Shown here in pieces: positions 14,938 through 63,978 of a stretch of DNA of 64,000 bases (its first letter is position 1; each line of letters begins with the position of its first letter). The DNA comes from Pseudomonadaceae bacterium. Lineage in GTDB: Bacteria; Pseudomonadota; Gammaproteobacteria; Pseudomonadales; Azotimanducaceae. The stretch lies in assembly GCA_024743175.1 (NCBI GenBank), contig JANSXA010000004.1, positions 310,001-374,000 on the forward strand, written 5' to 3'. The notes beneath the pieces were generated by a model. That model was given only the letters and a program-made list of their open reading frames with translations. It was not told the origin of the DNA and searched no databases. A program made the translations under genes and the position numbers.

Positions 14938-14957
14938 GCCGAAGGTGACCCTTTAGC

Positions 14958-15389
14958 TCATACTTCCGCGTCCACCTGCTGAATGTCAAAGCTGTGGGTA
15001 ATGTCCACGCCGGCACGCTGCAACATGATCGAGGCAGAACAGTACTTTTCTGCCGTCAGCGCAATTGCCCGCTCCACTCGCCCCGGGTCCAGCTTGTCAC
15101 CTTCAATGACAAAGTGAATGTGGATGGTTTCAAAAACCTGTGGGATGTCATCCGCCCGTTTTGCTGTGATCTCGGTCACACAATTGGTCACTTTCTGACG
15201 GGATTTGCGCAATATACTCACCACATCAAAAGATGTGCATCCGCCAACGCCCATCAGCATGAGCTCCATGGGGCGAACGCCCAGATTTTCACCGCCGGAA
15301 TCGGCTGGACCATCAATAGATACTTCGTGTCCAGAGTCCGCTGTCGCGGTGAAATGGACGTTGTTCTGCCATTGTATTTTTGTGTGCAT
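14958..15389 (-). CDS. OsmC/Ohr family protein (YhfA type)
   Basis: This 143-residue OsmC-fold protein has its two conserved cysteines in MGVGGCTSFDVVSIL and EKYCSASIML, the pair that reduces organic peroxides in studied members. The sequence (starting MHTKIQWQNNVHFTA and containing RPMELMLMGVGGC) is closest to the YhfA subgroup, often found beside crp. It lies divergent from crp with about 170 bases between the starts, the same neighbourhood as in Pseudomonas and Enterobacteriaceae. Confidence 0.87.
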   Translation of the reverse strand: MHTKIQWQNNVHFTATADSGHEVSIDGPADSGGENLGVRPMELMLMGVGGCTSFDVVSILRKSRQKVTNCVTEITAKRADDIPQVFETIHIHFVIEGDKLDPGRVERAIALTAEKYCSASIMLQRAGVDITHSFDIQQVDAEV

Positions 15390-47432: not shown

Positions 47433-48626
47433 ATGACCTTGCAGCCCTCCCGTTTCAAGTTGTTTATGCTCGACCGTATCTCCTGGTTGGCGATTCTTAT
47501 TGTCTGCTGTTTTGTCGCGGTGTTGTTGTTGCCGAGTCAGAGTCGTGCAAGCTATCCGACTTACGTTCTTGCCATTGTCATGCTGATCAGCTTTGCTGCG
47601 TGGCGTGATGTTTTCCAACTACCGCTGATACGTTGGATAGTTGCGCTACTGGTCTGGCTGAATTTAAGTGTTTTCTGGTCTGAGACGTTTGTGCTTCGTG
47701 AAGCCGTATCAGTATGGACGCGATCGATATTGATTCTTGCTTTTGTGGTCGCTGCTGCGGAGTGCCAGCTTCGTGGGCAATTACAGCGCTGGATGGCCAC
47801 TGCGCTGACCTGGGTGGGGTGCCTTGCTGTATTGGCAAGCCTGATCAATTTTTTTGTCACAGACCCAGCTGACGGACGCCTGAATGGTCTTGGTCAGCTC
47901 GACACTCATGTGGTGGCGGCACTTGTCTACGGGACTATGGTGCTTTTCGTCTGGCGTGCTGCGCAATCAACATCCAGAACTTTTCTGCAGCTGGCGGCAT
48001 TTGCGGTTGCCTTGTTGATGGTGTGGGCAGTGTTTCTCTCCGACTCTCGAAATGCCTGGGTGAGTTTAATCATTGGCTTAGCAGTTTTTGGTGTCGCCCA
48101 ATGGTGCAAAGACGTTCGTCAGTTTCTGACAGCAGTTATCTCGGTTGGCATTCTCGGTGGCGTGGTTCTGTTCATATTAATCAGCAGCGAGGCAACGCGT
48201 GAGCTGCTGTTGCCGAGGGGTGATAGCTTTCGATTCACGATATGGGATGCAACTATAAACGCAATTATGCAGGACTCACTGCTGTTCGGACGCGGTATTT
48301 TAACATCGGATGACATCAGCGTCGGAGCCATGAGCTTTTTTCATCCTCACAATATGTATCTGGCGCTGCTGCATCAGGGTGGACTTATTGGATTGATCCT
48401 CTTTTTAATAGTAATTGTTCTCTCGCTGATGCAGTTGCTGCGTAACTACGACAGCTCAGAAGCGAAACTCATGCTAGGGGTTCTGGCGCTGGCGCTGTCA
48501 GCTTATCTTTTAGATGGGCATGAGCTGGTGGATAAGGTGGGGGATACCTGGTTGCTGTTCTGGTTTCCGGTTGGCGTGGCGTTGGGGTTTGGGTGGCGGG
48601 TGCCCCTGAAAAGCAGCATTAACTAG
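47433..48626 (+). CDS. O-antigen ligase/polymerase-like membrane protein
   Basis: This 397-residue protein is almost wholly hydrophobic, with roughly ten to twelve membrane helices and one larger periplasmic loop (about 260-310) containing LLFGRGILTSDDIS and SFFHPHNMYLALLHQGG. The HxHN segment after a short Gly/Arg-rich stretch is the hallmark of the Wzy_C/WaaL superfamily, which joins glycans to lipid A core, polymerises O-units or acts on proteins. Which of these applies cannot be told from sequence. It opens the glycan locus after the tRNA and converges on a glycosyltransferase gene. Confidence 0.8.
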   Translation: MTLQPSRFKLFMLDRISWLAILIVCCFVAVLLLPSQSRASYPTYVLAIVMLISFAAWRDVFQLPLIRWIVALLVWLNLSVFWSETFVLREAVSVWTRSILILAFVVAAAECQLRGQLQRWMATALTWVGCLAVLASLINFFVTDPADGRLNGLGQLDTHVVAALVYGTMVLFVWRAAQSTSRTFLQLAAFAVALLMVWAVFLSDSRNAWVSLIIGLAVFGVAQWCKDVRQFLTAVISVGILGGVVLFILISSEATRELLLPRGDSFRFTIWDATINAIMQDSLLFGRGILTSDDISVGAMSFFHPHNMYLALLHQGGLIGLILFLIVIVLSLMQLLRNYDSSEAKLMLGVLALALSAYLLDGHELVDKVGDTWLLFWFPVGVALGFGWRVPLKSSIN

Positions 48627-48637
48627 AGTGGATTGAG

Positions 48638-49858
48638 TTACCGGGAGTTAAGTGTTTTTGCAGGCCCATTACCCTGTTTTACATTGATCAGTGCTTGCCC
48701 GGACAACTCCGAATAGATCTCTGCGTAGCGGGCTGCCATAACTTGCCCGGTGAACAAGCGTTTGTAGCGATCTCGCGCTTTTCGCCCCATTAACGCTGAC
48801 ATGTCCGGTCGATCATGTAATTGATCCATGGCTTTACGCAAGGCTTTTGGTGAACCTGGCGGCACGACAAAACCAGTATCGCTGTCCGTGTTGATGTGAC
48901 TTGTTCCAGATCCGACTTCGGTTGATATCAGTGGTTTACCGCTCATGGCGCCTTCGAGCAAAGTGACACCAAAAGCTTCCGAGCGCATATAAGATGGGAA
49001 CACGGTGCCTCTGCAAAGTTGGAAAAGCGCCATCTTCTTTTCGTCGGATACGTGGCCAGCAAAAATCACGTTATTAAGCTGCAGATCTTTCGCGTGTTGT
49101 TTCAACTCCATTTCTGTTGGACCAGAACCTGCAATAACAACTTTGTATGGCGCTTTTTTCATCGCATCAAGCAGGATATGTAGTCCTTTGTAGTATCTAA
49201 GGACGCCAACAAAAAGGAAAAAATCTTTACCAAATTCCTGTTCTGTCTCCGCGACAGTTTTATCGGTTGGTTTGGGATAGGTCTGCTCATCCAATCCTAT
49301 TGGAATGACGTCGACTTTTTCTTCGAACTGGCTCAGAACATCGCTGGTAGCAAAATAGTTTGGCGACGTGCAGATAATCCTATCCACAGATTTTAGAAAT
49401 CGGGACATTACAGGTTTATATAGTGCACCAAGAAATCGTTGCCGGACGATGTCCGAGTGATAAGTCACTATGGCTGGTTTGCTAGGTCGATTGGTTAGAT
49501 GAAGATAGTCAACAAAGGGCCAGGGAAAGTGGTAATGGACAACGTCTGCTTCCTCGCAGAGTTTTGCGAATGTTTTGCCAGCGCCGAAAGCGATGCTGCA
49601 GGATGCGATTTCGAGATGTCTCTTAACCCTGACAACCTTTGCCTCTGGAAGTTGAATTTCTTCAGGATCTGGGTTTTCACTCGTGGCAAGTACGGTTGAA
49701 GTAACGCCGTAGACACTAGCCGCACTGCATATTTGGCGAATAGTCTCTTCTAAACCGCCCTGTGTGTCGGGAAAGTAAGTGCGGTAGACGTGGAGGATAT
49801 TCAAAAAGTATTTCTCATCGGTGTTGCCGTGCCAACGGAAGGCATCGTAGGTTGCCAT
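48638..49858 (-). CDS. Glycosyltransferase, GT4 family
   Basis: This GT-B enzyme has about 406 residues. The N-terminal half has LNILHVYRTYFPDTQGGLEE, the acceptor-side Gly-rich start. The C-terminal half has FFLFVGVLRYYKGLHILLD, YKVVIAGSGPTEMELK and the nucleotide-sugar motif SEAFGVTLLEGAMSGKP with the E-x7-E pair. This is the pattern of retaining GT4 enzymes, often mannosyl- or glucosyltransferases in LPS loci. ATG at 49858 is preferred to 49873. It is divergent from the GT2 gene at 49932. Confidence 0.87.
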   Translation of the reverse strand: MATYDAFRWHGNTDEKYFLNILHVYRTYFPDTQGGLEETIRQICSAASVYGVTSTVLATSENPDPEEIQLPEAKVVRVKRHLEIASCSIAFGAGKTFAKLCEEADVVHYHFPWPFVDYLHLTNRPSKPAIVTYHSDIVRQRFLGALYKPVMSRFLKSVDRIICTSPNYFATSDVLSQFEEKVDVIPIGLDEQTYPKPTDKTVAETEQEFGKDFFLFVGVLRYYKGLHILLDAMKKAPYKVVIAGSGPTEMELKQHAKDLQLNNVIFAGHVSDEKKMALFQLCRGTVFPSYMRSEAFGVTLLEGAMSGKPLISTEVGSGTSHINTDSDTGFVVPPGSPKALRKAMDQLHDRPDMSALMGRKARDRYKRLFTGQVMAARYAEIYSELSGQALINVKQGNGPAKTLNSR

Positions 49859-49931
49859 GTACCTTAGCTGCAATATATTTGTAGTACAATTCTCGTTGAA
49901 GCGCGTTGCTCATCAAAGGTTAGATTGCTGC

Positions 49932-50834
49932 ATGGCTGGTTCAAAGGTTTCGATAGTTGTGCCGAGTTTTAACCAGGGCAAGTATGTTCGTCGGACATTG
50001 AATTCACTCGTTTCGGAGGCCAAGCAAGTCGATTTAGAGGTTATTGTTCAGGATGCAGGTAGCTCGGACGAGACCCATGAGATTCTAGCTGATTTTCGGC
50101 AGCATTCGTTTGTAAAAATTTGCATTGAGCCCGACTCTGGTCAAAGCGATGCTCTTAACAAAGGGTTTCGAAAGGCATCCGGGAATATATTGGGCTGGCT
50201 TAACTCAGACGATGTCTTGATTGATGGCTCAATGAGAAGTGTCATAGAAGGCTTCCACAAGAATCCTGATACTGACCTGGTTTATGGGGATGCGCTGTTC
50301 ATCGATGAAAATGATAAAATCATCGAAGCGTATCCTACAGGTGATCTTACCTCTGAAGTCTTGCGCGATCGCTGTGTGATTTCGCAACCGTCTACCTTTT
50401 TTACCAAAAAAGCTTATGAGAGATATGGTCCATTCAGAGATGATCTGCATTTCTGCATGGACTATGAGTATTGGACGCGTTTACTTGTTAATGGCGCATC
50501 TGTTTTGCGCCTAAGAGAAACAGTTTCCTGTACACGTATCCATGATGAAACCAAAACGAGTAATGGGGGGCTTGCGTTCATAGATGAAATTGTAAGAATG
50601 CAAGAATGCCTCCTAGGAGAGGCATCTCCTGTCTGGCAGGTTTACAAAAAAACGCGTAGTGCTCCCCTGAACCACCTGTCTCTCAAGCCACTGCGATTTG
50701 GGATTGCCGCTTTTCAGCAGGTTCTGAAAAATCCTTCATTCATCGTTGATGCGTGCCGTTCGATAAAGGAACGTAGATTGGCCGTGTATCGATCCAGAAA
50801 ACTGTTAAAGAGTTTTGGCGAGCAAATTGAGTAG
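49932..50834 (+). CDS. Glycosyltransferase, GT2 family
   Basis: A GT-A enzyme of 300 residues. It starts MAGSKVSIVVPSFNQGKYVR, with QDAGSSDETHEIL, the metal-binding WLNSDD, CVISQPSTFFTKKAYE and MDYEYWTRLL. The ATG at 49932 gives the normal start; the frame extends upstream to 49857 without support. It overlaps the next gene by 20 bases. It is clearly homologous to the N-terminal domain of the giant protein at 59614, sharing WLN[S/T]DD, QP[S/A]TF and DYEYW. Confidence 0.88.
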   Translation: MAGSKVSIVVPSFNQGKYVRRTLNSLVSEAKQVDLEVIVQDAGSSDETHEILADFRQHSFVKICIEPDSGQSDALNKGFRKASGNILGWLNSDDVLIDGSMRSVIEGFHKNPDTDLVYGDALFIDENDKIIEAYPTGDLTSEVLRDRCVISQPSTFFTKKAYERYGPFRDDLHFCMDYEYWTRLLVNGASVLRLRETVSCTRIHDETKTSNGGLAFIDEIVRMQECLLGEASPVWQVYKKTRSAPLNHLSLKPLRFGIAAFQQVLKNPSFIVDACRSIKERRLAVYRSRKLLKSFGEQIE

Positions 50835-52134
50835 CGCTCACAGCTTAAAATCGACACCAGCTTTGCTCCTGGGGAATGGGCCTTCTCTTAAGCACCTCGA
50901 CCTGGTGAAAGATACAACTGGTCACCATACGTTTGGCATGAATGCAGCTTACCGCCATTGGGAAAAGATCGATTGGTGGCCAACATATTATTCTTGTTTA
51001 GATACAGTTGTTGGGGACAGTCACTATTCGGCTATAGAAGCCTTGGTTGTAAACTCTGCATCAAATGGGATTCAGAAATTTCTCGTTAGGGAGAATGTTT
51101 TTGAGCGGATCCCCAAGGCGCACTTGGGAGTCGTAGATTGTTATGAAGATCTTGTTTCTAACGGACTTTTACCTCATTTGCCCGACATAACAACCGGTTC
51201 CCATACTCTTTTGTGGGCGCAACTTTTAGGCTATCAAACTATCCTTGTTGCAGGCGTAGACTTGAATTATGTGGAGCAGCTGGATCAGTCTTCTTTGATT
51301 GAAGGCGTTTTGGAAGTAACCGAGGAAGGGCAGAATCCAAACTATTTCTTCGATGACTATCAACGCCCTGGTGATCGTTACAACATTCCAAATCCGAGGC
51401 CCAACTTACATAAATCATCCTGGGTGAACGCCTCCCGTCATGTGCATTTCCCCTCAGTGGTAGTGAATCTAAACAAAGACTCTGCAGTGGATGTCTTTGT
51501 TAAAAATCAGTCGGTATCTTTGTCTTCAATCGGTCCCTTTGTTATTCAATCTGGCGCTAAATCTATCGATTTACTGAAGCATCTGAACGCGCAGAAAAAC
51601 ATACCGAAGAATTTTTATGAGATTACAGAGGCTAGAGTCCGAGAACTTTGCAGAAGGGATCATTGGTGCAGGGCACTGGTAGATTACGAATCATCGGATG
51701 CAAATGCCATTGCCCTCGTTTTTAATAGTGAATTGGTTAAGTTCAGGTTTGCTTCCTCAGATGAGGTTCATTCCGGTTTGGAAAATCCTGAACAGTTGGT
51801 TGTGCTTACTGCGGATCAAAGGTTGTTATGTGATTTTCTCGTTTTGTTAACTCAACTGTCTACTGCGCCTCGGTTGCAGAGAGCAAAGGAAACCGTTGCC
51901 AGCATAAGGGATAAGGTCGTGCGACAGTTTGTACCTCGGCGCATTCGTCGGATAAGCTTCTACGAAAACTGGTTAAACTTTTTATCTTATTACGGGTCAG
52001 CGCGTGGTGTTTCGATCCTTCTCCTGAATGGCGGGCTGGCTTATCTCATTGGGTTACCGCAACTAGATTTCTTCACAGTGTTTGTTGCCTGGGTTCTTTT
52101 GAGCTTACTCTTGCCGCTAGCCCACAGGCGATAA
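50815..52134 (+). CDS. DUF115/MptE-like (GT42-resembling) protein with C-terminal membrane helices
   Basis: This 439-residue protein has LLLGNGPSLKHLDL, TFGMNAAYRHWEKIDWWP, YYSCLD, ITTGSHTLLWAQLLGYQ, VAGVDLNYVEQ and NPNYFFDDYQRPGDRYN. The GNGPSL start, the ITxGxxxxxxAxxLGY helix and the GxDxxY turn are shared with the DUF115/Maf group and with GT42 sialyltransferases. A CMP-sugar transferase role is therefore plausible but unproven. Two hydrophobic segments (about 402-436) end the protein. It starts with TTG (50815 or 50827) and overlaps the GT2 gene. A close paralogue is fused inside the protein at 59614. Confidence 0.72.
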   Translation: MASKLSSAHSLKSTPALLLGNGPSLKHLDLVKDTTGHHTFGMNAAYRHWEKIDWWPTYYSCLDTVVGDSHYSAIEALVVNSASNGIQKFLVRENVFERIPKAHLGVVDCYEDLVSNGLLPHLPDITTGSHTLLWAQLLGYQTILVAGVDLNYVEQLDQSSLIEGVLEVTEEGQNPNYFFDDYQRPGDRYNIPNPRPNLHKSSWVNASRHVHFPSVVVNLNKDSAVDVFVKNQSVSLSSIGPFVIQSGAKSIDLLKHLNAQKNIPKNFYEITEARVRELCRRDHWCRALVDYESSDANAIALVFNSELVKFRFASSDEVHSGLENPEQLVVLTADQRLLCDFLVLLTQLSTAPRLQRAKETVASIRDKVVRQFVPRRIRRISFYENWLNFLSYYGSARGVSILLLNGGLAYLIGLPQLDFFTVFVAWVLLSLLLPLAHRR

Positions 52135-52139
52135 CAGAC

Positions 52140-53261
52140 ATGTTGGTCGACAAAGATCATGCTCCAGTTAGGGTACTTATAGTTTCTGTCACCGCGCGGG
52201 ATTCCGCGAGTGCCACAGGTCAGCTGATACAGACCTTATTCGAAACGCTTGAGCCGATTGAGACTTTATCTCTGTACGCTGGCTACCCGTCGGTGAACCA
52301 GCAGTATCGGCAGGTTCTGTTCAAACGCAATCGTTTGTTTTCTGCTTATCAGGCAATCAAAGAGTTTAATCCGGATGTTGTCTACGTTAGACCGTCACTG
52401 AAACCGCTCAGTTTTAACTTCTTCGCTTTGTTCGTGATTCTTACCCTTAGTTCAAGGATAGTACTTCACATAATGGACGATGAGTCGAATGACACAACAA
52501 ATGGTGGCTTTCTCAGTCGCTTTAGCTTTTCACTTTATCTGCGTTGGCTGATACATCGGTCAGACAAGATATTCACTATTTCGCCTGGAATGAGCGCTGC
52601 ATTTTTTGAACGCTATGGCTGTGATTCTCAACCCTTATCCAACATCTTAAGACCTGGCCTTCCCGTCGGAAAAAGAATCTTTAAGCAAAATGAAAAGATA
52701 AAGATTGGGTATTTTGGTTCATTGGACATTCGGATGAACCTGCGTTGTGTGGAAGAGACCTGCGCTACTTTAGATAAGTTAAACTCGATTGGTTATTCGA
52801 TCAGTTTGGACGTCTTTACACGTCCAATGTATCTGGAGTGGGCCAACTCAAATCTTTGCTTCGAAAATACAAGTTTTCATTCTTATGTCCCATCGGAGAA
52901 GTATTTTGAAATTTTACGTACCTATGATGTGCTGCTGATTGCTTACAATTTTGATCCGGTCAGCATTGAGTATTGCAGATTTTCTATAGCGAATAAGCTC
53001 GCGGACTATTTAGGCGCTGGTGTTCCAATACTGGTCGTGGGACCTGATGCGATCGAAACGGTGGCGCATTGTAAGCAGAATGAAATTGGCACGACAATTT
53101 CAAGCGGGTATTCGATGTTAGAACGCGACATCTCCAGGTATTTGGAAAGATTGCAGGCTGGCGGAGCCTCTCAGTCTGGGATGTGGGAACGGCACAATCG
53201 AGCATTGGGACTAAAGTCTGCAATGGATGCGTGGCACTCCGCCTTCAGAGCGGTTGATTGA
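52140..53261 (+). CDS. Glycosyltransferase, GT4-like
   Basis: This 373-residue GT-B-type protein has an N-terminal acceptor domain (VRVLIVSVTARDSASATGQL; VVYVRPSLKP) and a C-terminal donor domain (KIGYFGSLDIRMN; YEFSxANK-type block CRFSIANKLADYLGAGVP). The classical E-x7-E is not obvious, so subfamily and sugar are uncertain. It starts with ATG five bases after the DUF115-like gene, so the three plus-strand genes 49932-53261 probably form one operon. Confidence 0.78.
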   Translation: MLVDKDHAPVRVLIVSVTARDSASATGQLIQTLFETLEPIETLSLYAGYPSVNQQYRQVLFKRNRLFSAYQAIKEFNPDVVYVRPSLKPLSFNFFALFVILTLSSRIVLHIMDDESNDTTNGGFLSRFSFSLYLRWLIHRSDKIFTISPGMSAAFFERYGCDSQPLSNILRPGLPVGKRIFKQNEKIKIGYFGSLDIRMNLRCVEETCATLDKLNSIGYSISLDVFTRPMYLEWANSNLCFENTSFHSYVPSEKYFEILRTYDVLLIAYNFDPVSIEYCRFSIANKLADYLGAGVPILVVGPDAIETVAHCKQNEIGTTISSGYSMLERDISRYLERLQAGGASQSGMWERHNRALGLKSAMDAWHSAFRAVD

Positions 53262-53379: not shown

Positions 53380-54120
53380 TCAGTTTGGATCGTGCAACCT
53401 GGCGCCAATAGCTCCATCAATTGCAATAGTGGCGCCGTTAATGAAGCCTGCCTTCTGTTCAGCCAGAAATAATGCTAACTCAGCAACTTCGTTAGGCTCT
53501 CCTATTCGATTCATAGGATGGAAGCTGCCTAGTCTTTCGATAGACTGGGGCGATTCCGAAAATCCTGATTGCAGCATTGGCGTATTGATTGCGGCTGGCT
53601 CAATCAGGTTAACTCGAATTGAATCTCCCAGTTCGACGGCCAAGGCTTGAGTAAACCCGCGTAAAGCTGCTTTAGAGGTAGCGTATGCAGTGAAGCCGGC
53701 CTTTGTTGCTTTTGCATGGATACTGCCAATGTTGATGACGCTACCTTCGTTTGATATCAATTCTTGAAGAACCAGCTGCGTGATTCTCACTGCGGCGAAC
53801 ACGTTGATTTCGAAAGTGTCTCGCCAGTCTGCTTGGGTCAAGTCGTCAAAATTGCCAAGTCGTTGGAGTGCCGCGTTGTTCACCACTGCGTGGATGCCTG
53901 CCGAATAGCGGGCGCAGATGGAACTTAACTTGTCGATGAAGTCTGCCGCATCAAAATCACTGAGGTCTAGTGTGATAGATTCCTTCGGATATTCAGCTGT
54001 GCGTTGGTCAATACCGATGACCAAATAGCCGCTTTCTTCAAACTTTCTGCAGATGGCCTGGCCAATGCCGCCGCTGCTACCGGTTATGATTGCTGCTTTA
54101 CGACTATCGTTTGGGTTCAC
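53380..54120 (-). CDS. Short-chain dehydrogenase/reductase
   Basis: This 246-residue classical SDR has the NAD(P)-binding GSSGGIGQAICRKFEESGY, VNNAALQRLG, the catalytic Ser in INIGSIHAKAT, YATSK (catalytic Tyr-x3-Lys) and EPAAINTPML. The segment GIDQRTAEYP after the second strand suggests NAD preference (Asp at the tip). The substrate is unknown. Because it is the last gene of an operon with a cytidylyltransferase and a hydroxyacid dehydrogenase, it may act on a sugar acid or its precursor. It overlaps the dehydrogenase gene by four bases. Confidence 0.85.
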   Translation of the reverse strand: MNPNDSRKAAIITGSSGGIGQAICRKFEESGYLVIGIDQRTAEYPKESITLDLSDFDAADFIDKLSSICARYSAGIHAVVNNAALQRLGNFDDLTQADWRDTFEINVFAAVRITQLVLQELISNEGSVINIGSIHAKATKAGFTAYATSKAALRGFTQALAVELGDSIRVNLIEPAAINTPMLQSGFSESPQSIERLGSFHPMNRIGEPNEVAELALFLAEQKAGFINGATIAIDGAIGARLHDPN

Positions 54121-55040
54121 CTGGATAGCATATCGTGAAGCAGGCTCATTGCGCGTTCATTCGTGGCCTGCACGGCTTCTTTGGTGTTGGAAGCGTTGTG
54201 ACTTCCCAGAACTGTCTGGTCTGATAAAGCGAACGGTGAGGCAGTATCCAGCGGCTCATTCTCGAATACGTCCAGTGCACAACCGGCAATGTGACCATCC
54301 TGCATTGATCTCAACAGCGCACGTTCATCAATAAGCGGTCCTCGAGATACGTTGATTAGATAAGCGCCCGGTTTCATATGAGAGATAGCGTCACTGTTAA
54401 CTAAATGTTGGTTTGATTCAGTCAATGCGCAAGCGAGAAACAGGAAATCACAGCGCCCTAAATCCTCAGGCCAATTGCGAATTTCGCTTCCTTCGAGTGC
54501 TTCTACAAAAGGATCGTAGCCAATAGTTGAGACGCCCGAGGTGTGCAGTCTGGCGATAATTGACTTTCCGATGTTACCCAATCCTACAACACCCGCGGTT
54601 TTTCCTCTCAGGCTCATACCCTGAGGCTTTATCCACTGACCTGCACGGACCGACTTGTCGATCTGGGTAATTTTTCTAACCAGGTTGATCAGGTAACCAT
54701 AGGCGAGGTCGGCCACTTCATCTGAAAACATGCCAGGTGTATTGGCGAACTGCAATCCGAACTCTTCTACGGCGTGCAAATCAATATTGTCTACGCCGAT
54801 TCCCCATTTGACAATTGCACGTAACTTCCCGCCCCGTGCCGCCTGAATCACTGTCCTGGATGCAGGGTCATCGCCTGCAATCCAACCATCGTATTCGGGT
54901 AAAAGCTCGAGCAATTCCTGTTCCGTGAGAGTTTGAATTACCTCGGCTTCGGTTGCCTGCATGTCAAACTTTTGCGCGAGTTCGTTAATTTGTTCTGGCT
55001 CTTTAAGCATTGGGGGACATGTGATCAGGATTTTGTTCAT
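54117..55040 (-). CDS. D-2-hydroxyacid dehydrogenase (SerA-like)
   Basis: This protein of about 307 residues has the D-isomer-specific dehydrogenase fold. Features are AIVKWGIGVDNIDL, the NAD loop GVVGLGNIGKSIIARL, INVSRGPLIDERALL (catalytic Arg), ALDVFENEPL (Glu) and LGSHNASNTKEA (His). It resembles 3-phosphoglycerate dehydrogenase without the ACT domain, so it is unlikely to be the main SerA. ATG at 55040 overlaps the cytidylyltransferase stop by four bases. Its place between that gene and an SDR suggests a role in making a sugar acid or a glycerate-type substituent. Confidence 0.85.
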   Translation of the reverse strand: MNKILITCPPMLKEPEQINELAQKFDMQATEAEVIQTLTEQELLELLPEYDGWIAGDDPASRTVIQAARGGKLRAIVKWGIGVDNIDLHAVEEFGLQFANTPGMFSDEVADLAYGYLINLVRKITQIDKSVRAGQWIKPQGMSLRGKTAGVVGLGNIGKSIIARLHTSGVSTIGYDPFVEALEGSEIRNWPEDLGRCDFLFLACALTESNQHLVNSDAISHMKPGAYLINVSRGPLIDERALLRSMQDGHIAGCALDVFENEPLDTASPFALSDQTVLGSHNASNTKEAVQATNERAMSLLHDMLSR

Positions 55041-55723
55041 AGTTGTGTGTCCGAGAAATTGTTCGCAATAGCGTTTGCCAAGTCCCAATCTGAAGGCTCG
55101 TCTATGTCGATAGATTCTATTTTTGGGGTTTCAAATAGAATCGGGTGGTTTCCAATTCGAGCCTTTGTCGATGCGAAACTATCCCGTGTGAAAATATAAA
55201 GGCACGAATTCTCTTCAAACCAAGGCTCGAGATCTTGAGTCCTGAGCAACTTATTGGGATCGTGATTAACAGGCTTACCTTCGGCGGTATAGAAGCGAGT
55301 TTGAAACTTGTTGACCGAGAACAATGAGTCAGACGTTGGACTAGAATCGAATTGATCTATCGCAGCTTGTATTGTGGCTTTGGTGATAAACGGGTTGGTC
55401 ACATGAGTCATTAAGTACCGATCGGATTCTTTTGCTGCGATGTCGTCTTCAATAATAAGGTTCATACTGACGAGATCACCGATAAGCTCAGGTTTACGGT
55501 TTCTTATCGTCACACGATCGTACTTGATACTTTCCAGGTCCAACCCCGCCTCCATAAGCTGGTTGGACGCATCCGTGTTTATCACGACTTCATCAATACT
55601 CGGGACATCAAGCAAAGTATCTAACATCCACAAAAAAAGTGGTTTCCCACCTAGCACACGAAAGTTCTTGCCTGGAACTCGCTCGCTGTTAGCTTTCATT
55701 GGTAACAGTGCAGTGTATTTCAT
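55037..55723 (-). CDS. NeuA-like cytidylyltransferase (CMP-sugar-acid synthetase family)
   Basis: This 228-residue protein has the NeuA/KdsB-type start LLPMKANSERVPGKNFRVLG with the CTP-binding basic residues, then DEVVINTDAS, VTNPFITKATIQAA and the acidic ESIDIDEPSDWDLA near the end, matching the IDT/E-D-xD block of CMP-NeuAc synthetases. It would activate a 3-deoxy-ulosonic or similar acid with CTP. The exact acid is unknown: no neuB-, kdsA- or pseI-like synthase is in the window. Confidence 0.85.
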   Translation of the reverse strand: MKYTALLPMKANSERVPGKNFRVLGGKPLFLWMLDTLLDVPSIDEVVINTDASNQLMEAGLDLESIKYDRVTIRNRKPELIGDLVSMNLIIEDDIAAKESDRYLMTHVTNPFITKATIQAAIDQFDSSPTSDSLFSVNKFQTRFYTAEGKPVNHDPNKLLRTQDLEPWFEENSCLYIFTRDSFASTKARIGNHPILFETPKIESIDIDEPSDWDLANAIANNFSDTQL

Positions 55724-55731
55724 TGAGTCTT

Positions 55732-56622
55732 TTAGCCTCCGGGGTAAAAATATCTTCTCTTTTTCTCAGCAGTCAGCTTACGTGAGCTGTGAGAGCCGGA
55801 AAAGCTGCCCCAGTATTGGCAACATCTGAATCTTATTATGTTGGCTATCTCCTGCAGGAACACTCCTTTCCGGACGGCGATGCTGCTGTCGTACAAAACA
55901 CTCGTCACGATGCAATTTATCAAATCTCTTTTTGACATATGCAGGTGTGGATCAATTTGTTGGAGCGCTAATGCCTCTCTTTCATATCGCCATCGAACCT
56001 GAGCCCATGTTTCATTGTGGATATGATAAACAGCTGCATTGTCTGCGTAGTCAATTTTTTCCCCGGCAGCGATCAATCTCTTACCCAGGTGCATGTCTTC
56101 CAGCCCGGTGAGGTGTTCATCGAACGGATAGTGTTGCCAAACTGATTTGAGGAGGGCGGCATTGGCGTTGTTAACAAAATAGGGTTGTTGAGGCGTACGA
56201 CTGATCGGATCAAAGTATTTTGCAAACACCTGTTTTTCGCTGAAGCGCGTTGTATCCCTACCCACCTGATTGCCATAGCAATAGGACACCCCTTCAGTTT
56301 TTAGGGGAGCCACTATGTTTTTTAGCCAGTCGGTACTGCAGGGTACGCAGTGTCCGCTGACAAAAACTAAATAGTCGCCGCGTGCGTTTTCACATCCCAG
56401 GTTGAGCGAGCGCCCAAATGTAAATTCCTCTTTTGGGATATGTACGACATTGCAATCGTGCTTTTCGGCGATCCGGAGAGTGTCATCGGTTGAACCTGAA
56501 TCAACAATTACAATTTCTGCGCGCATACTTTCAAGGTGCTGTGCACGAACTGCGGTTAAAAGTTCGTCGAGGTATGCTTGTTCGTTGTAGGTTCTAACAA
56601 CTACAGAGATATCTGGCTTCAT
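55732..56622 (-). CDS. Glycosyltransferase, GT2 family
   Basis: This 296-residue GT-A enzyme starts MKPDISVVVRTYNEQAYLDE. It has IVIVDSGSTDDTLRIAEKH, FTFGRSLNLGCENARGDY, a divergent DxD region (LVFVSGHCVP) and FDEHLTGLEDMHLGKRLI. The SGHC in place of DxD and the RSLNLG motif are typical of the rhamnosyltransferase-like subgroup. It lies nine bases after fcl and eight before the cytidylyltransferase, so it belongs to the gmd operon and may transfer the fucose made there. Confidence 0.86.
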   Translation of the reverse strand: MKPDISVVVRTYNEQAYLDELLTAVRAQHLESMRAEIVIVDSGSTDDTLRIAEKHDCNVVHIPKEEFTFGRSLNLGCENARGDYLVFVSGHCVPCSTDWLKNIVAPLKTEGVSYCYGNQVGRDTTRFSEKQVFAKYFDPISRTPQQPYFVNNANAALLKSVWQHYPFDEHLTGLEDMHLGKRLIAAGEKIDYADNAAVYHIHNETWAQVRWRYEREALALQQIDPHLHMSKRDLINCIVTSVLYDSSIAVRKGVFLQEIANIIRFRCCQYWGSFSGSHSSRKLTAEKKRRYFYPGG

Positions 56623-56631
56623 AATACCTTG

Positions 56632-57597
56632 CTAGAGTCTCAGAGAGCCGGAGTTATCCTGGAACCATCTATAAGTTTCCGCCAAACCGGTTTCCAGTTT
56701 CACCTCTGGGTGCCACCCAAGTTGGTTGATTTTACTGGTATCTAAAAGTTTGCGCGGTGTTCCATCCGGCATGTCCGTATTGAAAACGGTTTTTCCCTGA
56801 TAGCCGACACAGGTCTTTATCATTTCTGCCAAAGCCGCAATGGTCAAATCCTGACCGGTACCAACGTTCAGGTGAGACAACTGGGGGTTAGTAACCTCCA
56901 TGTACTTGTGCTTAGGCAAACCTAGCGTAAACAGAACTGCGTTTGCTAAATCGTTAACGTGCAAAAATTCTCTTCTCGCCTTTCCTGTTCCCCAAATCTC
57001 CACCTGTTCGGCATGATTTTCTTTAGCTTCGTGGAACTTACGCATTAGTGCGGGAATAACATGGCTATGTTCGGGGTGGAAATTGTCGCCCGGTCCGTAC
57101 AGGTTGGTGGGCATCAGGGAACGGTAGTCGCAGTCGAATTGGCGATTGTAGCTTTCACATAGCTTTATACCTGCTATTTTTGCAATCGCGTAAGCTTCAT
57201 TGGTGAGCTCCAGAGTTCCGGTTAACAGAGCCGACTCTTGGAGTGGTTGCGGAGCCATTTTCGGGTAGATGCAACTGCTTCCGAGAAAGATTATTTTTTC
57301 AACATCTGCAAGATAACTCTGGTGAACAAGATTGGCTTCGATCATCAGGTTCTCATAGATAAATTCTGCAGGTAAGGTGTTATTTGCGTGAATACCGCCT
57401 ACTTTGGCTGCCGCGATAATGACAATATCGGGCTTTGTTTTGCCTAGAAATGCACGTACCTCATTTTGCTGTGTGCAATCTAGTTCCTTTCTGCTCGCCG
57501 CAAGGACACGCTCCACTCCGGCGTTGGTTAATGCTCTCTTGATTGCTGAACCCACCATGCCTCTGTCTCCAGCGACAAATATTTTTTTGTCTAGCAT
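56632..57597 (-). CDS. fcl: GDP-L-fucose synthase
   Basis: Converts GDP-4-keto-6-deoxymannose to GDP-L-fucose by epimerisation and reduction with NADPH. The 321-residue extended SDR has [46 protein letters not shown] (catalytic Ser and Cys), [18 protein letters not shown] (Tyr and Lys) and [19 protein letters not shown] (His). All the residues needed for epimerisation are present. Its ATG overlaps the gmd stop by one base. Confidence 0.94.
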
Positions 57598-58730
57598 CAG
57601 GTCTCCATGGATGGAACGTATGTGTAGCCGTGTTGCTGGATGATTAGGTCCTTTTTAGCGAGTTCGAGGTCGTTATCAACCATTTCGTTGACGAGCTCAT
57701 CCAGCGTGGTTCTTGGCTGCCACGAGAGCTTGGCTTTGGCTTTTGCAGGATCGCCCAGCAGGGTACTAACCTCTGTCGGGCGGTAATAGCGGGGGTCCAC
57801 ACGAACAATTATGTCACCGGGTTTGAGTTGCTCAATGCTGCTTGTCTTGACTCTTGCATATTCTTCTTCGTCGGCGCCAATCCATTCTAAAGTTATGCCA
57901 AGCCTTTCAGCTGTCTTATTGACGAAGTCTCTAACTGAACATTGCACGCCTGTTGCGATGACATAATCATCAGGCTCATTTTGTTGCAACATGAGCCACT
58001 GCATTTCAATGTAGTCACGCGCATGACCCCAGTCCCGCAGGCTATCCAGATTGCCCAAGTAGAGGCATGGCTCCAAACCGAGGCTAATGCGGGCAAGTGC
58101 CCTTGTGATCTTCCTTGTAACAAAGGTTTCACCACGCATGGGGCTTTCATGATTAAACAGTATGCCGTTGCATGCATAAATCCCATAAGCTTCGCGGTAG
58201 TTTACAGTTATCCAATAGGCGTACAGTTTGGCGACAGCGTATGGCGAGCGAGGGTAAAAGGGAGTTGTTTCTTTCTGTGGGGTTTCCTGAACCAAACCGT
58301 ATAGTTCAGAAGAAGAAGCCTGATAAAAACGTGTCTTTTGGGTCAATCCTGCAACGCGTATTGCCTCTAAGACTCGAAGGGCGCCTAGACCTGTAACATT
58401 AGCTGTATATTCCGGGAGTTCAAACGAGACTGCTACGTGGCTCTGAGCGGCTAGGTTATAGATTTCATCGGGCTGAATTTTTTCTACCAGTTGAATGAGA
58501 TTTGAACTGTCGACGAGGTCCGAGTAGTGCAATATGAAATTGCGGTTTTCTTCGTGCGGGTCTTCGTACAACGGATCCAGCCTTGAAGTGTTAAGCGAAG
58601 AGGCCCGACGTTTGGTCCCGTGCACTTCATAGCCTTTATCTAACAGAAATTTTGCTAGATACGCGCCGTCCTGGCCTGTTGTACCCGTAATTAGAGCCTT
58701 TTTTTGCAACTTCGATCCGCCATGAAACAA
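57597..58730 (-). CDS. gmd: GDP-mannose 4,6-dehydratase
   Basis: First step from GDP-mannose to 6-deoxyhexoses. The 377 residues have [61 protein letters not shown] (Thr replaced by Ser in the catalytic SSE), [19 protein letters not shown] and [19 protein letters not shown]. It heads a six-gene minus-strand operon (gmd-fcl-GT2-cytidylyltransferase-dehydrogenase-SDR). The likely start is at 58730 or at the Lys-rich segment a few codons later. Confidence 0.94.
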
Positions 58731-59613: not shown

Positions 59614-62600
59614 ATGGCTCGCCCATTTTTTTCAATCGTCACACCCAGCTATAATCAATCCGCCTACGTACAGAGTTGTATTGATAGTGTTGCTCGACAA
59701 ACTTTCACAGATTACGAGCATTTGGTTTTCGATGGCGAATCTACAGATGGAACAGTTGAAATTTTGCGTTCTTATTCAGCCATGTCAGAGAGGGTTAAGC
59801 TCCGTATTGGCAAAGATCGCGGACAGGTAGATGCAATAAACCAGGGCTTTCATGCGGCTTCTGGTAAATACCTCATATGGCTCAATACAGACGATTTCTT
59901 TCTGGACGATAGTGTCTTGGCTGATGTTCATTCAGCGTTAAAGTCCCAGAGCGTAGATTTTTTGTACGGCCGAGGAGAATTTGTTGATCCTCAAGGCCAG
60001 AAAATCAAAGATGTGTTTATCAATGAAGACCCTAGCTTGTTGTACAACCGGCTTATGGTTTCTGTGGGGATTCTGCAGCCAGCGACTTTCATCAAACGTG
60101 AAGCATTTGAGCAATTGGGTGATCTCGTAGAAACACATCCCTATTGCTTTGATTATGAATATTGGATGCGGGGCGTTTCCACAGGCATGAATTTTGAGTT
60201 CATTCCGAGAAAATTAACTCGTGCTACTCTCCATAACGATTCCAAAACGATTGGCGACCGCCTCGACTCCTTGCGGGACACATGTCTTGTAAACAAAAAA
60301 CACTATGGATTTGTGAGTTCGACCTGGATAGATAAGTTAGTCGAGTGTGAGCTTTATGGTGCTGACGGCATAGTTTCTTCAGGATCCGAAAACAGCAATG
60401 AAAAAGAACATCGTTTAATGGAGGTCTTCAAGCAATTGAATGGCGGAAAAGCAGCTGCAGCTGCAATTTATAGTAAGGCGCATATTGCTGAGGCGCAAAG
60501 TACGCTAGAGGCTTTGCGAGATTCGCGTGAAGTGTCGACGAAAAACACTATCGTAACTGCTTTTGATGAGCAGTTTTTTACCAGTGGGCTCTCCCTTGTT
60601 TCTGGTTTGCAATCTCGCCATTCTGAAATCTCCGTATTTGTTTATGACATCGGTCTGAATGGAGAGCAGCGTCAAGTTCTCAACTCGCTGAAAAACGTGT
60701 TCGTATTGGACTTTGACAAACGCGCGAGACCCTTTTGCGAAAACTACTTTACACCTCAAACTTACGGGTTTAAGTCCTACGCGATGTGGCATGCGCGCCA
60801 CTATTTAGGCAAGCACGATCGCTTGCTTTGGCTAGACGCCGGTGTTTATCCATTGAAAAATCTGAACAGGATTTTTGACCTGATCGAAGATCGAGAGATT
60901 TTCCTGGTCGATCACGATGATAAAGGTGTGTGGCCGGTCCACAATATCACTTTTACTTCTAATGAGTGCTTAGCTCGAATGCGCGCTACGGCCGAGGAAA
61001 TGACCAGTCCAGCGCTGCGAGCAGGCGTCGCTGGTTATAAAATCGGAGGCAGGTATGCCTCTTTGTTTGACGAAGCATTTGAGTTTTCGCTAGATGCAGA
61101 CATCCTGTGCGGAGAGAAACACCCAAAGCCGCCATTGTATAAAACTCGTTCAGGTGGTTCGCCGGAAGAGCGTAAAAAGTCAGTCGAAGATGAAGCGTGG
61201 TTACACTCTCAGCCAATGGAAAAACTTCGGCAGATTTTTGGCTATTTTGGTCACCGGCACGACCAATCAATTTTGTCGTTGCTGGCAGCACGTCACGGCG
61301 CACCCTTTCAGTCTGCCAGCGCGTTCTGTGTTGCTGATGACGCATCTTCTGCATTCTCTAAAGCCCGCTGGACCAACGGCGCCGCTGTTTCTGCGTCTGA
61401 TGAGATACCGCAATATTACCGGGATGCCGATGTTGAATTGATGCAGCATCGAGGTTTGTTCAGGAATACCAACGACCTCATTTTTGAACACCGTCCTACA
61501 AATTCAGCGCCTGCAATGGTGATGGGGAACGGCCCTTCACTTAAGAACTTTGATTTCAAGCGTCTCAGTCGTTTTGATGTGTTCGGTATGAACGCGGCCT
61601 ATAGATATTGGGAAGAGATCAATTGGTATCCGACATATTATTCCTGTCTTGATCTCGTAGTCGGGCTCAGCCACAAAGCTGAAATTGGCAACCTGATTGA
61701 GAATGCCGATCGGTTGGGCATTAGGCTATTTCTTTTACGCAGAAATCTGATAGAAGAACTAGGTGATATTGGACGCTCCGAAAAAGTGCTCAACTTTGAT
61801 CTCCTACAGAACCACATTTCACTGTTACAGGCGCCCACCATAACTACTGGTAGCCACACTGCTGCCTGGGCTGCCGTCCTGGGCTATAACAATATTTATA
61901 TGCTAGGCATCGACTGCAATTACGTTGAAAGGGTCGACGGTTCCCGCGATGTTGGGCGAGGTACAGAATTGGAAATTGTAGAAGAATCCGATAATCCGAA
62001 TTACTTCTTCAAGGGATATCAACAAAAGGGTGACCGGTATAACGTCCCGAATCCAGATCGGGATATCCACATGGCATCCTGGAGAGAAGTTTCACAGCGA
62101 ATCCATCGGGTACAAAAGTCAATTCTGAATGCGAATTTGCTATCCAAGGTAGATTCTATCGATTTTTGCAGTTTTGATGACGTCGAGAATTCTGATACAC
62201 CGAAAGTAATCCCCTTGGAAACTATCCTTGGGCCCGTATCTTCTGATGCTCCACAAACGAAAGAAAACATCTCGAACACCGAACGGGAATCGCAAGTCGT
62301 TGTGACCGCTTTGGAATCAAATAAAGGTGCTGTGGGAGAGCAGGATATGCATGAAGAGCGAAATACCAACGACTCGATCGGAAGCGAGCCAAGTTCCTCA
62401 ATAAACGGACGGCGAATTCGTGATCTGTTGGGTGCGCTGGGCAGGCACGCGAAGAGATATGGTCTACTCGTAGTCCCCTATGGATTAGTTGTTGCTGGCC
62501 TCAGTTACCTAACACTTAAAAGTGACGGTAATACGCAAATATTATTCCTGGGGCTTGTGCTGCTAGCAGTATTTGCTGGAGCCGTTCTGATGGCCGCAGA

Positions 62601-63978
62601 AGCCGCGAGACGAACAAAGTTGCACTACTTTAATCTGCAAAGTCAGTTGGATTCCGCTCGACATGGTCTTCGTCAGGATCAAAACAGGTTTGAACGTCAA
62701 CTTGCGGAACTTGCGAAAAAGACCAGCACGGTTGCACAAATGGGTAGCGATGTCCGCAAGCTAAAACGCGAGTTGGAAACAATTGATGGAAAAGTTGCAT
62801 CCAAAGCGCCGAAAAAATCTATTGAAAATCTGCGGGATCGTATCGATCAGATAAATACGCAAGACCTGCTGCAAAGAGAACAATTAGCGCCTGTTGAATT
62901 CGAAGTCTCTGAATTGGCGGTAACTCTAGAGTCCTATCGACGTCAGTTAGATCAAGCACTTGAATTACAGGATGATTACAAGACGCTACTCGGGAAACTG
63001 TCGCAAACAGTGACTGTAGAGCAATTGGATTACAAGTTAGAAGACTCCGTGGGGCGGCAAGAATTCCAGCAACAGCAGGAACAACTAAGAGAGTTGCAGC
63101 AGTACAACAGTAGTTTTAATGAAGTAGCCGATGAGCTCACTGGACGTTTGCAACATATGCAGACCGAAATAGACAAAGTGAGTGCGTCCGATGAAGCCAT
63201 CGAAGAAACAAGAAAGCTAAGCGCTAGGTTAGATGCGCTACCCGAAAGCAACCTCAGGAATTACAACTTATTCAATCGGGCTTTACAGCCTGAGCACGTT
63301 AAAGAATATCGGGAGAAATGGTCCCGTGCTCTTGGAGTTTCACTTCCAGAAAAAGCGATGTACTACATGGCCCATCGCTTCACAACAATTGAGAGTCAGC
63401 TCAGAGGCCGGTTAGCAACAAATATAGAGACGGCTGTCCTGCGTGCCTTGGTTCTTGATGGGGTTGCGAAAAAGTCGGTGTCCATCCTGGAAATTGGGAC
63501 GCTTTTCGGGGTAGGTGCAGCCATGCTTTTTGATCATGCACGCGATAAATTCGACCACGTTGAAATTACTGTACTGGACCCACTGGATGGTTATTACGGA
63601 AATGCGCTAGACGTGCTTTCTGGAATTGGAGTAAATGAAGGTACTTTGATCGACAATTTGCAACGCGCTGGGTTGAGTGAAGATAACTTCAGAGTTATCA
63701 AACACTTCAGCTACGAAGAAGAAGCTATAAAACAGGCAGGAGATCGAGAGTACGACTACATACTCATTGATGGCGATCACACACGCAGCGGGATAGAGAT
63801 TGACTTTAAGCACTATTCGGAATTTCTGACGCGCGGTGGAGTTATCCTGTTTGACGATTACGGCTCCGACGACTGGCCCGACGTTGCCAGCTTTGTCGAT
63901 GAAGTTGTTGCGAATGATGAGAGGTTTGCATTTGTTGGTGCTGGGTGGCGTACAGCAATTTACAGGAAAATTGCCTAG
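59614..63978 (+). CDS. Giant fusion: GT2, GT8-like, DUF115/GT42-like, membrane hairpin, coiled coil, methyltransferase
   Basis: 1454 residues. A family-2 glycosyltransferase fills about 1-240 (SIVTPSYNQSAYVQS, FDGESTDGT, WLNTDDF, FDYEYWMRG). About 308-600 resembles GT8-type transferases (NTIVTAFDEQFFTSGLSLVS; LLWLDAGVYPLKNL where DxD is expected). About 634-840 is a DUF115/GT42-like domain (MGNGPSLKNF, FGMNAAYRYWEEINWYP, ITTGSHTAAWAAVLGY, LGIDCNYVE). Two membrane helices follow (about 950-968 and 976-996), then about 215 residues of charged heptad-rich coiled coil. A class I methyltransferase closes it (about 1280-1454: ILEIGTLFGVGAAML, LIDGDHTRSGIEIDF, ILFDDYGSDDWPD). It probably acts on the cytoplasmic side of the inner membrane. 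The frame is intact and ends 22 bases before the window edge. Confidence 0.82.
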   Translation: MARPFFSIVTPSYNQSAYVQSCIDSVARQTFTDYEHLVFDGESTDGTVEILRSYSAMSERVKLRIGKDRGQVDAINQGFHAASGKYLIWLNTDDFFLDDSVLADVHSALKSQSVDFLYGRGEFVDPQGQKIKDVFINEDPSLLYNRLMVSVGILQPATFIKREAFEQLGDLVETHPYCFDYEYWMRGVSTGMNFEFIPRKLTRATLHNDSKTIGDRLDSLRDTCLVNKKHYGFVSSTWIDKLVECELYGADGIVSSGSENSNEKEHRLMEVFKQLNGGKAAAAAIYSKAHIAEAQSTLEALRDSREVSTKNTIVTAFDEQFFTSGLSLVSGLQSRHSEISVFVYDIGLNGEQRQVLNSLKNVFVLDFDKRARPFCENYFTPQTYGFKSYAMWHARHYLGKHDRLLWLDAGVYPLKNLNRIFDLIEDREIFLVDHDDKGVWPVHNITFTSNECLARMRATAEEMTSPALRAGVAGYKIGGRYASLFDEAFEFSLDADILCGEKHPKPPLYKTRSGGSPEERKKSVEDEAWLHSQPMEKLRQIFGYFGHRHDQSILSLLAARHGAPFQSASAFCVADDASSAFSKARWTNGAAVSASDEIPQYYRDADVELMQHRGLFRNTNDLIFEHRPTNSAPAMVMGNGPSLKNFDFKRLSRFDVFGMNAAYRYWEEINWYPTYYSCLDLVVGLSHKAEIGNLIENADRLGIRLFLLRRNLIEELGDIGRSEKVLNFDLLQNHISLLQAPTITTGSHTAAWAAVLGYNNIYMLGIDCNYVERVDGSRDVGRGTELEIVEESDNPNYFFKGYQQKGDRYNVPNPDRDIHMASWREVSQRIHRVQKSILNANLLSKVDSIDFCSFDDVENSDTPKVIPLETILGPVSSDAPQTKENISNTERESQVVVTALESNKGAVGEQDMHEERNTNDSIGSEPSSSINGRRIRDLLGALGRHAKRYGLLVVPYGLVVAGLSYLTLKSDGNTQILFLGLVLLAVFAGAVLMAAEAARRTKLHYFNLQSQLDSARHGLRQDQNRFERQLAELAKKTSTVAQMGSDVRKLKRELETIDGKVASKAPKKSIENLRDRIDQINTQDLLQREQLAPVEFEVSELAVTLESYRRQLDQALELQDDYKTLLGKLSQTVTVEQLDYKLEDSVGRQEFQQQQEQLRELQQYNSSFNEVADELTGRLQHMQTEIDKVSASDEAIEETRKLSARLDALPESNLRNYNLFNRALQPEHVKEYREKWSRALGVSLPEKAMYYMAHRFTTIESQLRGRLATNIETAVLRALVLDGVAKKSVSILEIGTLFGVGAAMLFDHARDKFDHVEITVLDPLDGYYGNALDVLSGIGVNEGTLIDNLQRAGLSEDNFRVIKHFSYEEEAIKQAGDREYDYILIDGDHTRSGIEIDFKHYSEFLTRGGVILFDDYGSDDWPDVASFVDEVVANDERFAFVGAGWRTAIYRKIA

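Follow-up and report, generated by a model that had tools for sequence, protein, structure and literature searches.

A predicted single-chain polysaccharide assembly protein carrying a methyltransferase at the far end of a coiled coil

Results

P0001 joins glycosyltransferase modules, a membrane hairpin, a coiled coil, and a methyltransferase

We analyzed a 64,000-nucleotide stretch of DNA (hereafter, the window) from contig JANSXA010000004.1 of a Pseudomonadaceae bacterium (assembly GCA_024743175.1) and focused on a gene close to its end (59614..63978, + strand) that encodes a fusion protein of 1454 amino acids (aa), here termed P0001. The analysis suggests, with a probability of roughly 0.6, that P0001 acts as one polypeptide to assemble a surface polysaccharide exported by an ATP-binding cassette (ABC) transporter, combining polymerase modules, a coiled coil acting as a ruler, and a methyl cap. 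From the N-terminus, the modules are a family 2 glycosyltransferase (GT2), a middle domain of ~360 residues, a DUF115/CST-I-like domain, two hydrophobic segments, a coiled coil, and a Methyltransf_24 domain; genes for a Wzm/Wzt exporter lie directly downstream in the same cluster. A first-pass annotation, made from the sequence alone, had listed GT2, DUF115/GT42-like, hairpin, coil, and C-terminal S-adenosylmethionine methyltransferase parts, and Pfam, hydropathy, a heptad test, and AlphaFold bear this list out.

The frame is open from ATG to stop and sits within a contig of 396,871 bases, and the whole copy was located in the source genome (4.7 Mb, rated 98% complete). An artifact joining separate genes is unlikely, judging from sequence comparison, because unrelated genomes encode like modules too, both within one frame and in adjacent genes; the earlier claim of one intact frame therefore holds. 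P0001 matched 584 records of a plasmid collection and 63 of a phage collection, none of them covering 80% of the protein, and the 25 plasmid and 15 phage matches listed were all to the GT2 part.

The GT2 domain occupies residues 4–240 (59623..60333, +). Pfam matched Glycos_transf_2 at residues 7–120 (5.9e-24), a PDB sequence search matched chondroitin synthase over residues 4–213, and Foldseek, run with the model of residues 1–900 as a whole, returned heparosan synthase 2, WrtF, and K4CP. The motifs NTDD and FDYEYW are present, with N91, D93, D94, D180, Y181, and W184 invariant in five aligned rows. With both the profile match and a DxD-like motif, this domain is by sequence a GT2 member.

The DUF115/MptE-like, GT42-like domain spans residues 623–850 (61480..62163, +). 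The Pfam match to CST-I was above the cut-off (6.7e-7), yet it covers only 30 residues (634–663), and an MptE-like match at 628–772 stayed below its cut-off (0.0025; 18 versus 34.6 bits). Sialyltransferase chains matched residues 635–803 in the PDB sequence search (E ~0.003–0.004). A seven-row DUF115 profile matched CstII (GT42) with a whole-sequence E of 5e-8, its two stretches alone giving 0.34 and 0.0033, and the alignment covers GNGPSLK and TTG...LGY..I.L.GID. The motifs GNGPSLK, T-T/S-G, and LGY..I.L.GID are thus common to CstI/CstII, the MptE-like (DUF115) family, and P0001, and the module is presumed to use a cytidine monophosphate (CMP)-sugar. In one relative (L052, 4157–10783), the DUF115 module that follows the middle domain has neither the GNGPS nor the NPNYFF signature and appears degenerate.

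The middle domain (residues 256–615; 60379..61458, +) is the least sure module of P0001. It had been called GT8-like, for which Pfam offered only a sub-threshold match to DUF1647 (residues 287–388), and a five-row profile of the domain matched the solved WbbM chain weakly (E 0.031). WLDAG, with W, D, A, and G invariant in five rows, stands at the expected DxD position. A GHRxDQxI motif, whose D550 is kept in four of five rows, resembles the DQ of GT8 enzymes. The strand-helix order, judged by eye in a moderate-confidence model (pLDDT, the per-residue confidence, ~43–85 up to residue 570 and <50 at 571–631), suits a GT-A domain. Four relatives of this domain occur in three loci (L052, L057, and twice in L066), always between GT2 and DUF115, and a class-wide search of 369 genomes, drawn evenly from a larger group, found the domain in the source genome alone.

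The C-terminal domain resembles sugar O-methyltransferases

The methyltransferase, presumed to add the cap, occupies residues 1206–1454 (63229..63975, +), with Methyltransf_24 matched at residues 1292–1416 (Pfam, 2.7e-13). It carries the motifs EIGTLFG, IDGDH, and DDY, whose E-I-G, D-x-D-H, and DD positions are invariant across a 14-row alignment. The domain is modeled mostly at pLDDT 85–97, with one ten-residue block at 58. Its top Foldseek match was MeT1 (1.6e-9, 16% identity), followed by TrmR, MycF, NovP, SpnH, and CalS11, among others; the top sequence-profile matches were MycE, SpnH, and MycF. MeT1 is the O-methyltransferase of mycobacterial methylmannose polysaccharide. The domain has the class I fold of the MycF/TylF/MeT1 type with aligned GD and DDY motifs, residues which presumably bind metal in those enzymes. 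MeT1, MycF, SpnH, and NovP, which share this fold and motif region with P0001 at 15–20% identity, are single enzymes acting on small glycosides or oligosaccharides. By profile and model, then, the domain resembles the sugar O-methyltransferases MeT1, MycF, and SpnH. Since Pfam found no kinase family in P0001 at E up to 0.1, a plain methyl ether appears more likely than a methyl phosphate.

A hydrophobic hairpin and a heptad-periodic coil precede the methyltransferase

Hydropathy marks two segments, residues 950–968 and 976–994 (62461..62595, +), which agree with model helices at 928–969 and 974–1060 and with the family alignment and form a putative membrane hairpin; the scan also marks 1288–1306, a stretch within the methyltransferase. 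The following coiled coil, the presumed ruler, covers residues 1000–1205 (62611..63228, +), which places the candidate terminator, by position, at the membrane-distal end. Heptad power in the coil was 0.61 against a shuffle mean of 0.18, and none of 1000 composition-preserving shuffles was as high; proline and glycine together account for 8 of its 206 residues. In control regions, the number of shuffles as high as the real sequence (per 500) was 79 for GT2, 28 for the middle domain, 424 for DUF115, and 36 for the methyltransferase. An AlphaFold model of residues 925–1454, built with 13 relatives (mean pLDDT 72.7; pTM, its overall fold score, 0.50), runs the hairpin helices into long helices at 974–1060, 1067–1132, and 1145–1190, with breaks at 1061–1066 and 1133–1144.

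From these parts we infer a mechanism that extends to polymerizing rather than oligosaccharide-forming activity, methyl as the terminal cap, ruler function, topology, and the nature of the donor and acceptor sugars. The GT2, GT8-like, and GT42-like modules would extend a lipid-linked glycan at the cytoplasmic face of the membrane, one donor probably being a CMP-activated acid sugar. The hairpin would anchor P0001 with both halves kept in the cytoplasm and the base of the coil at the membrane. The coil, ~31 nm at most if its 206 residues formed one unbroken helix, would hold the methyltransferase away from the growing end, so that only chains reaching it would be O-methylated at the non-reducing terminal sugar and cease to grow. 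The finished chain would then leave via the adjacent Wzm/Wzt.

The methyltransferase recurs beyond a membrane segment and coil in 42 related loci

Within the genus, 3 of 40 genomes matched full-length P0001 at 1e-40, the source included, one of these matches (G029) being through DUF115 only. The methyltransferase domain was found in 6 of 206 genomes of the family, again including the source, and in the source genome alone in the class-wide set of 369. Scanning genome contigs with the methyltransferase alignment yielded 57 loci, 42 of which were kept at ≥115 bits over ≥200 residues (four of them are the genomes G021, G107, G109, and G128 again). L073, in which a break separates the methyltransferase frame from the coil, was excluded from the 42; its locus has a Wzt with Wzt_C. 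The 42 loci span Alpha- and Gammaproteobacteria, Planctomycetes, Chloroflexi, Cyanobacteria, Nitrospirae, and one member of the Desulfovibrionaceae.

A long form (≥700 aa, range 700–2748 aa) was present in 27 of the 42 loci, and 25 of these long proteins carry recognized GT, DUF115, or FkbM modules ahead of the methyltransferase (L061 and L085 do not). The other 15 loci have a short form (<700 aa); 12 of these proteins contain a membrane segment and coil, L046 has the coil only, and both features are absent from L077 and L078. In 34 of the 42 frames, a hydrophobic segment is located no more than 560 residues ahead of the methyltransferase. Wzt is encoded on 24 loci, and in 23 of them it carries Wzt_C (17 detected by phmmer and 6 by Pfam; the phmmer count includes that of L038, which does not reach the Pfam cut-off).

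The module sets differ among relatives. G021 encodes a 1691-aa protein with the order GT2-MptE-GT4-like-FkbM-hairpin-coil-methyltransferase, near Wzm and a Wzt with Wzt_C, and the relative in G128 has 2320 aa. L057 resembles a split P0001, with adjacent genes for GT2-middle domain-DUF115 and for membrane segment-coil-methyltransferase, and L066 holds the GT2-middle domain-DUF115 set twice in one chain. On a methyltransferase tree of 43 rows, we counted at least nine changes between the long and short (<700 aa) forms. A slightly different labelling, in which a score threshold put L049, L061, and L085 among the split forms, gave 11 changes, 8 of them forced by well-supported branches. Such repeated changes fit modules that work together in either form. 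The placement of P0001 itself is unsupported (node support 22/78), and we therefore name no nearest relative.

Two further arrangements were observed. In G029 (L013, 3108–4376), a protein with a membrane segment and coil, encoded just before Wzm/Wzt, ends in another type of C-terminal domain (its Methyltransf_24 match reaches only E 0.17), as if one type of stalk could carry interchangeable terminators. In L084 (9878–11770) and L087 (9617–14842), which scored 79 and 76 bits and lie outside the 42, the related methyltransferase is N-terminal and is followed by a long coil (~700 residues in L087); only in L087 do DUF115 and a GT1-type domain come after the coil, which matches the Klebsiella O7 order.

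Coil length is labile while the methyltransferase is conserved

We measured the linker from the last hydrophobic segment to the methyltransferase, which was possible in 36 of 54 frames. Linkers in 35 of these run from 30 (L048) to 514 residues (L053); the 743 residues of L045 include other modules. Of 35 linkers tested for heptad periodicity, 28 had no shuffle out of 500 as high as the real sequence, and for six the number was 1 to 20. The pair L042 and L044 illustrates where the change occurs: ahead of the membrane, the proteins are identical at 1056 of 1283 positions with 18 gap columns, and their methyltransferases at 224 of 247 with no gaps, whereas their coils share only 61 of 137 positions with 95 gap columns. 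The coil of L044, a Hyphomonas fusion, contains a 42-base tandem repeat (9651–9950) of 7.1 copies with 93% matches, each unit encoding 14 residues, that is, two heptads.

Tandem arrays were present in 14 of the 54 frames scanned, and 11 of the 14 have them in the coil or linker. Eight of these 11 (L040, L044, L046, L051, L054, L061, L063, and L075) have periods of 7, 11, 14, or 22 residues. The coil arrays of L062 (18 residues), L071 (9), and L087 (60) do not, and L051 and L063 also hold arrays of 10 and 6 residues. Neither these non-heptad coil arrays nor those outside the coil (L050, L072, and L079) were counted as support. The periods are given without a null comparison, and any coiled coil may favour heptad steps. 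By sequence comparison, coil length is labile, partly through tandem repeats in the heptad register, while the methyltransferase is conserved.

P0001 inverts the order of known polymerase-terminator proteins

The plan of polymerase, coiled-coil ruler, and terminator is already known from WbbB, WbdD, and Klebsiella O7 ORF6. According to the part of PMC11231755 on which this comparison draws, the glycan is lengthened by membrane-proximal polymerase GTs, chains long enough to reach the terminator, which the coil carries at its distal end, are capped, and coil length sets chain length. A binding domain borne by Wzt then admits capped chains only, and it is present in all examples of terminated O-polysaccharides. 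The same source already reports terminator orthologues in which an N-terminal methyltransferase is joined to C-terminal GT modules.

Klebsiella pneumoniae O7 ORF6, as described there, is like P0001 a single chain that combines polymerase GTs with a coil whose far end bears a methylating terminator, and an ABC exporter is encoded in its cluster. Its order is methyltransferase-kinase-carbohydrate-binding module (CBM)-coil-GT, with two GT2 modules, whereas P0001 runs GT-hairpin-coil-methyltransferase, shows neither a kinase nor a CBM family by Pfam, and has a methyltransferase with other nearest structures. WbbB of Klebsiella O12 and Raoultella terrigena likewise polymerizes and terminates in one protein with a coil as ruler (PMC11231755), but its terminator is an N-terminal Kdo glycosyltransferase, and its C-terminal polymerase GTs belong to families other than those of P0001.

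WbdD (Escherichia coli O8/O9; Klebsiella O5/O3), the parallel named in the first-pass annotation, also places a coil between a methylating terminator and the membrane; its O5/O8 form adds methyl alone and its O3/O9 form has a kinase too (PMC11231755, in part). However, WbdD is separate from the polymerase WbdA, with N-terminal catalysis, a C-terminal amphipathic helix, and a Wzt bearing a CBM. In P0001 the methyltransferase is C-terminal, the anchor is a hairpin, and there is no kinase family. A WbdD-type identity for the methyltransferase was dropped since the profile and Foldseek matches point to MeT1, MycF, and SpnH, WbdD itself never having been compared directly. The closest described proteins are thus O7 ORF6 or WbbB, with the order reversed.

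The earlier remark that this architecture was unfamiliar stands among the titles and abstract openings of the open-access literature searched, where no protein of the P0001 order was found; most subscription papers lie outside it, and a prior description is possible. Within that scope, the new features are the inverted order with a MeT1/MycF-like methyltransferase on a coil, the module sets (GT2-middle domain-DUF115, GT4-like, and FkbM) in proteins of up to 2748 aa, the heptad-register variation of the coil, and the lack of a cap-reading domain on the Wzt of one member. The ruler idea rests on a few enterobacterial systems in PMC11231755. In the present family, one conserved methyltransferase is combined with coils of many different lengths, and the members include the close pair L042/L044, whose main difference in length lies in the coil; the link between coil length and glycan size is therefore directly testable.

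The missing cap-reading domain and alternative functions

Several observations weigh against an assembler with ruler and cap. The Wzt at the P0001 locus has 288 aa and no Wzt_C carbohydrate-binding domain, and PF14524 had no match in the source genome (G000); it was found in 5 of the 7 genomes searched, the other exception being G029, whose 442-aa Wzt has no Wzt_C match. Among relatives, 18 of the 42 loci have no Wzt within reach, and L049 (Stappia sediminis, 14471–15142) encodes a 223-aa Wzt that is the sole one of 24 without the binding domain. Eight of the 42 frames (L045, L046, L052, L054, L058, L069, L077, and L078) have no hydrophobic segment in reach, although the gene preceding L058 and L069 has one, and the linker of L043 lacks heptad periodicity (109 of 500 shuffles reached its value). 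Of the 27 long proteins, 19 also contain an FkbM-type methyltransferase module; methylation is therefore not necessarily capping. As to the model, AlphaFold predicted the methyltransferase well, the GT part only at a mean pLDDT of 67.6 and the coil helices at about 50–70, and the GT8-like call, with no canonical DxD in the domain, stays weak.

Cap-gated export at the P0001 locus is thus not supported by the sequences. Without a binding domain on Wzt, the export check of WbdD systems is absent at this locus, and either export proceeds without a check of the cap or methylation does not cap the chain. Described terminated systems pair a terminator borne on a coil with a Wzt that reads the cap, and this locus separates the two features. 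P0001 would work like the polymerase-terminator-ruler proteins, and the loci of its family mostly have all three parts; we do not file the P0001 locus as a full member because the cap-reading export check was looked for and not found. The earlier suggestion that the protein both builds a glycan and measures or caps it is supported by the exporter genes alongside, the 42 loci, and the labile coil length, while the function itself stays a prediction. More tentatively, and with rather less confidence, the family may represent an undescribed, widespread branch of inverted-order assemblers whose coil is tuned by heptad-register tandem duplication, with P0001 a member in which ruler and cap alone would set chain size without cap-checked export.

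The methyltransferase might instead decorate the glycan within its repeats or on a side branch, the coil being only a scaffold for oligomerization, by which the enzymes stay clustered at the membrane. The Wzt of the source genome and the FkbM-type modules favour this, as does a 217-aa gene that ends 3 bases upstream of P0001 (58957..59610, +). This gene has no Pfam match and is weakly similar to the small Methyltransf_11 genes that immediately precede the fusion in L042 and L044 (41 and 44 bits), and to genes in L037 (39 bits) and L055 (42 bits). However, the same methyltransferase stands repeatedly beyond coils of very different lengths, and 23 of 24 neighbouring Wzt proteins carry the domain that reads terminal caps in known systems; we consider decoration unlikely.

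It is less probable still that each GT module acts once per chain to build a short capped adaptor or core segment, with polymerization left to an unfused trio upstream. The trio comprises a stand-alone GT2 gene (49857..50834, +; Pfam), a DUF115 gene with a hydrophobic C-terminal end (50815..52134, +), and a GT4-like gene (52140..53261, +; sub-threshold in Pfam). It forms a second set beside the fused one, is partly paralogous to it (the DUF115 product is 48% identical to fusion residues 629–847), and keeps its order in G021 (L012) and G029 (L013). An O-antigen-ligase-like gene also lies nearby (47433–48626). Against such a role, it is hard to see what a ruler would do on a short segment, one chain in L066 contains the GT2-middle domain-DUF115 set twice, and the exporter genes adjoin the fusion rather than the trio. 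It is very improbable that the fusion arose by chance or is non-functional, or that its modules have decayed and persist as mere scaffold: WLDAG at the DxD site and the loss of most signature residues from the L052 DUF115 module would fit it, but the motif residues of GT2, DUF115, and the methyltransferase are intact in P0001 and invariant in their alignments, and the repeated long/short changes fit co-working modules.

Neighbouring genes

Upstream of the fusion, a conserved group on the minus strand comprises a short-chain dehydrogenase/reductase (SDR) gene, named by eye, and a 2-hydroxyacid dehydrogenase gene (53380..55088, −), a cytidylyltransferase gene (CTP_transf_3; 55037..55723, −; PseF-like, although far under the cut-off of that model), and a GT2 gene (55732..56622, −; Pfam). 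The group (53380–56622) recurs in L013, L027, L030–L032, L038, L040, L041, L064, and others, with not all members present in each locus; a cytidylyltransferase homologue is found on 26 of the 42 loci. This enzyme possibly supplies the CMP-sugar to the GT42-like module. The PseF-like match brought up a nonulosonate donor, which we do not claim: NeuB had no match in any of the seven genomes searched (G128 being only 57% complete), and the donor is therefore probably not a nonulosonate.

Genes named by eye as mannose-1-phosphate guanylyltransferase, GDP-mannose dehydratase, and GDP-fucose synthase (41743–43161 and 56632–58730) suggest guanosine diphosphate (GDP)-mannose/fucose donors. Downstream, on the same strand and beyond the end of the window, lie genes for a Wzm-like permease, a Wzt-like ATPase, a sulfotransferase-like protein (named by eye, without a Pfam match), a sulfotransferase, and a pyruvyltransferase. 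The best curated families for the Wzm/Wzt pair were those of galactan export, below the cut-off. A sulfotransferase-like gene of weak family support adjoins the fusion or Wzt at the source locus (L010, 5567–8281, beyond the window end) and in L041 (12313–13065), L047 (10828–11640), and L049 (10702–11640). With the sulfotransferase and pyruvyltransferase genes downstream, the glycan may be sulfated and pyruvylated.

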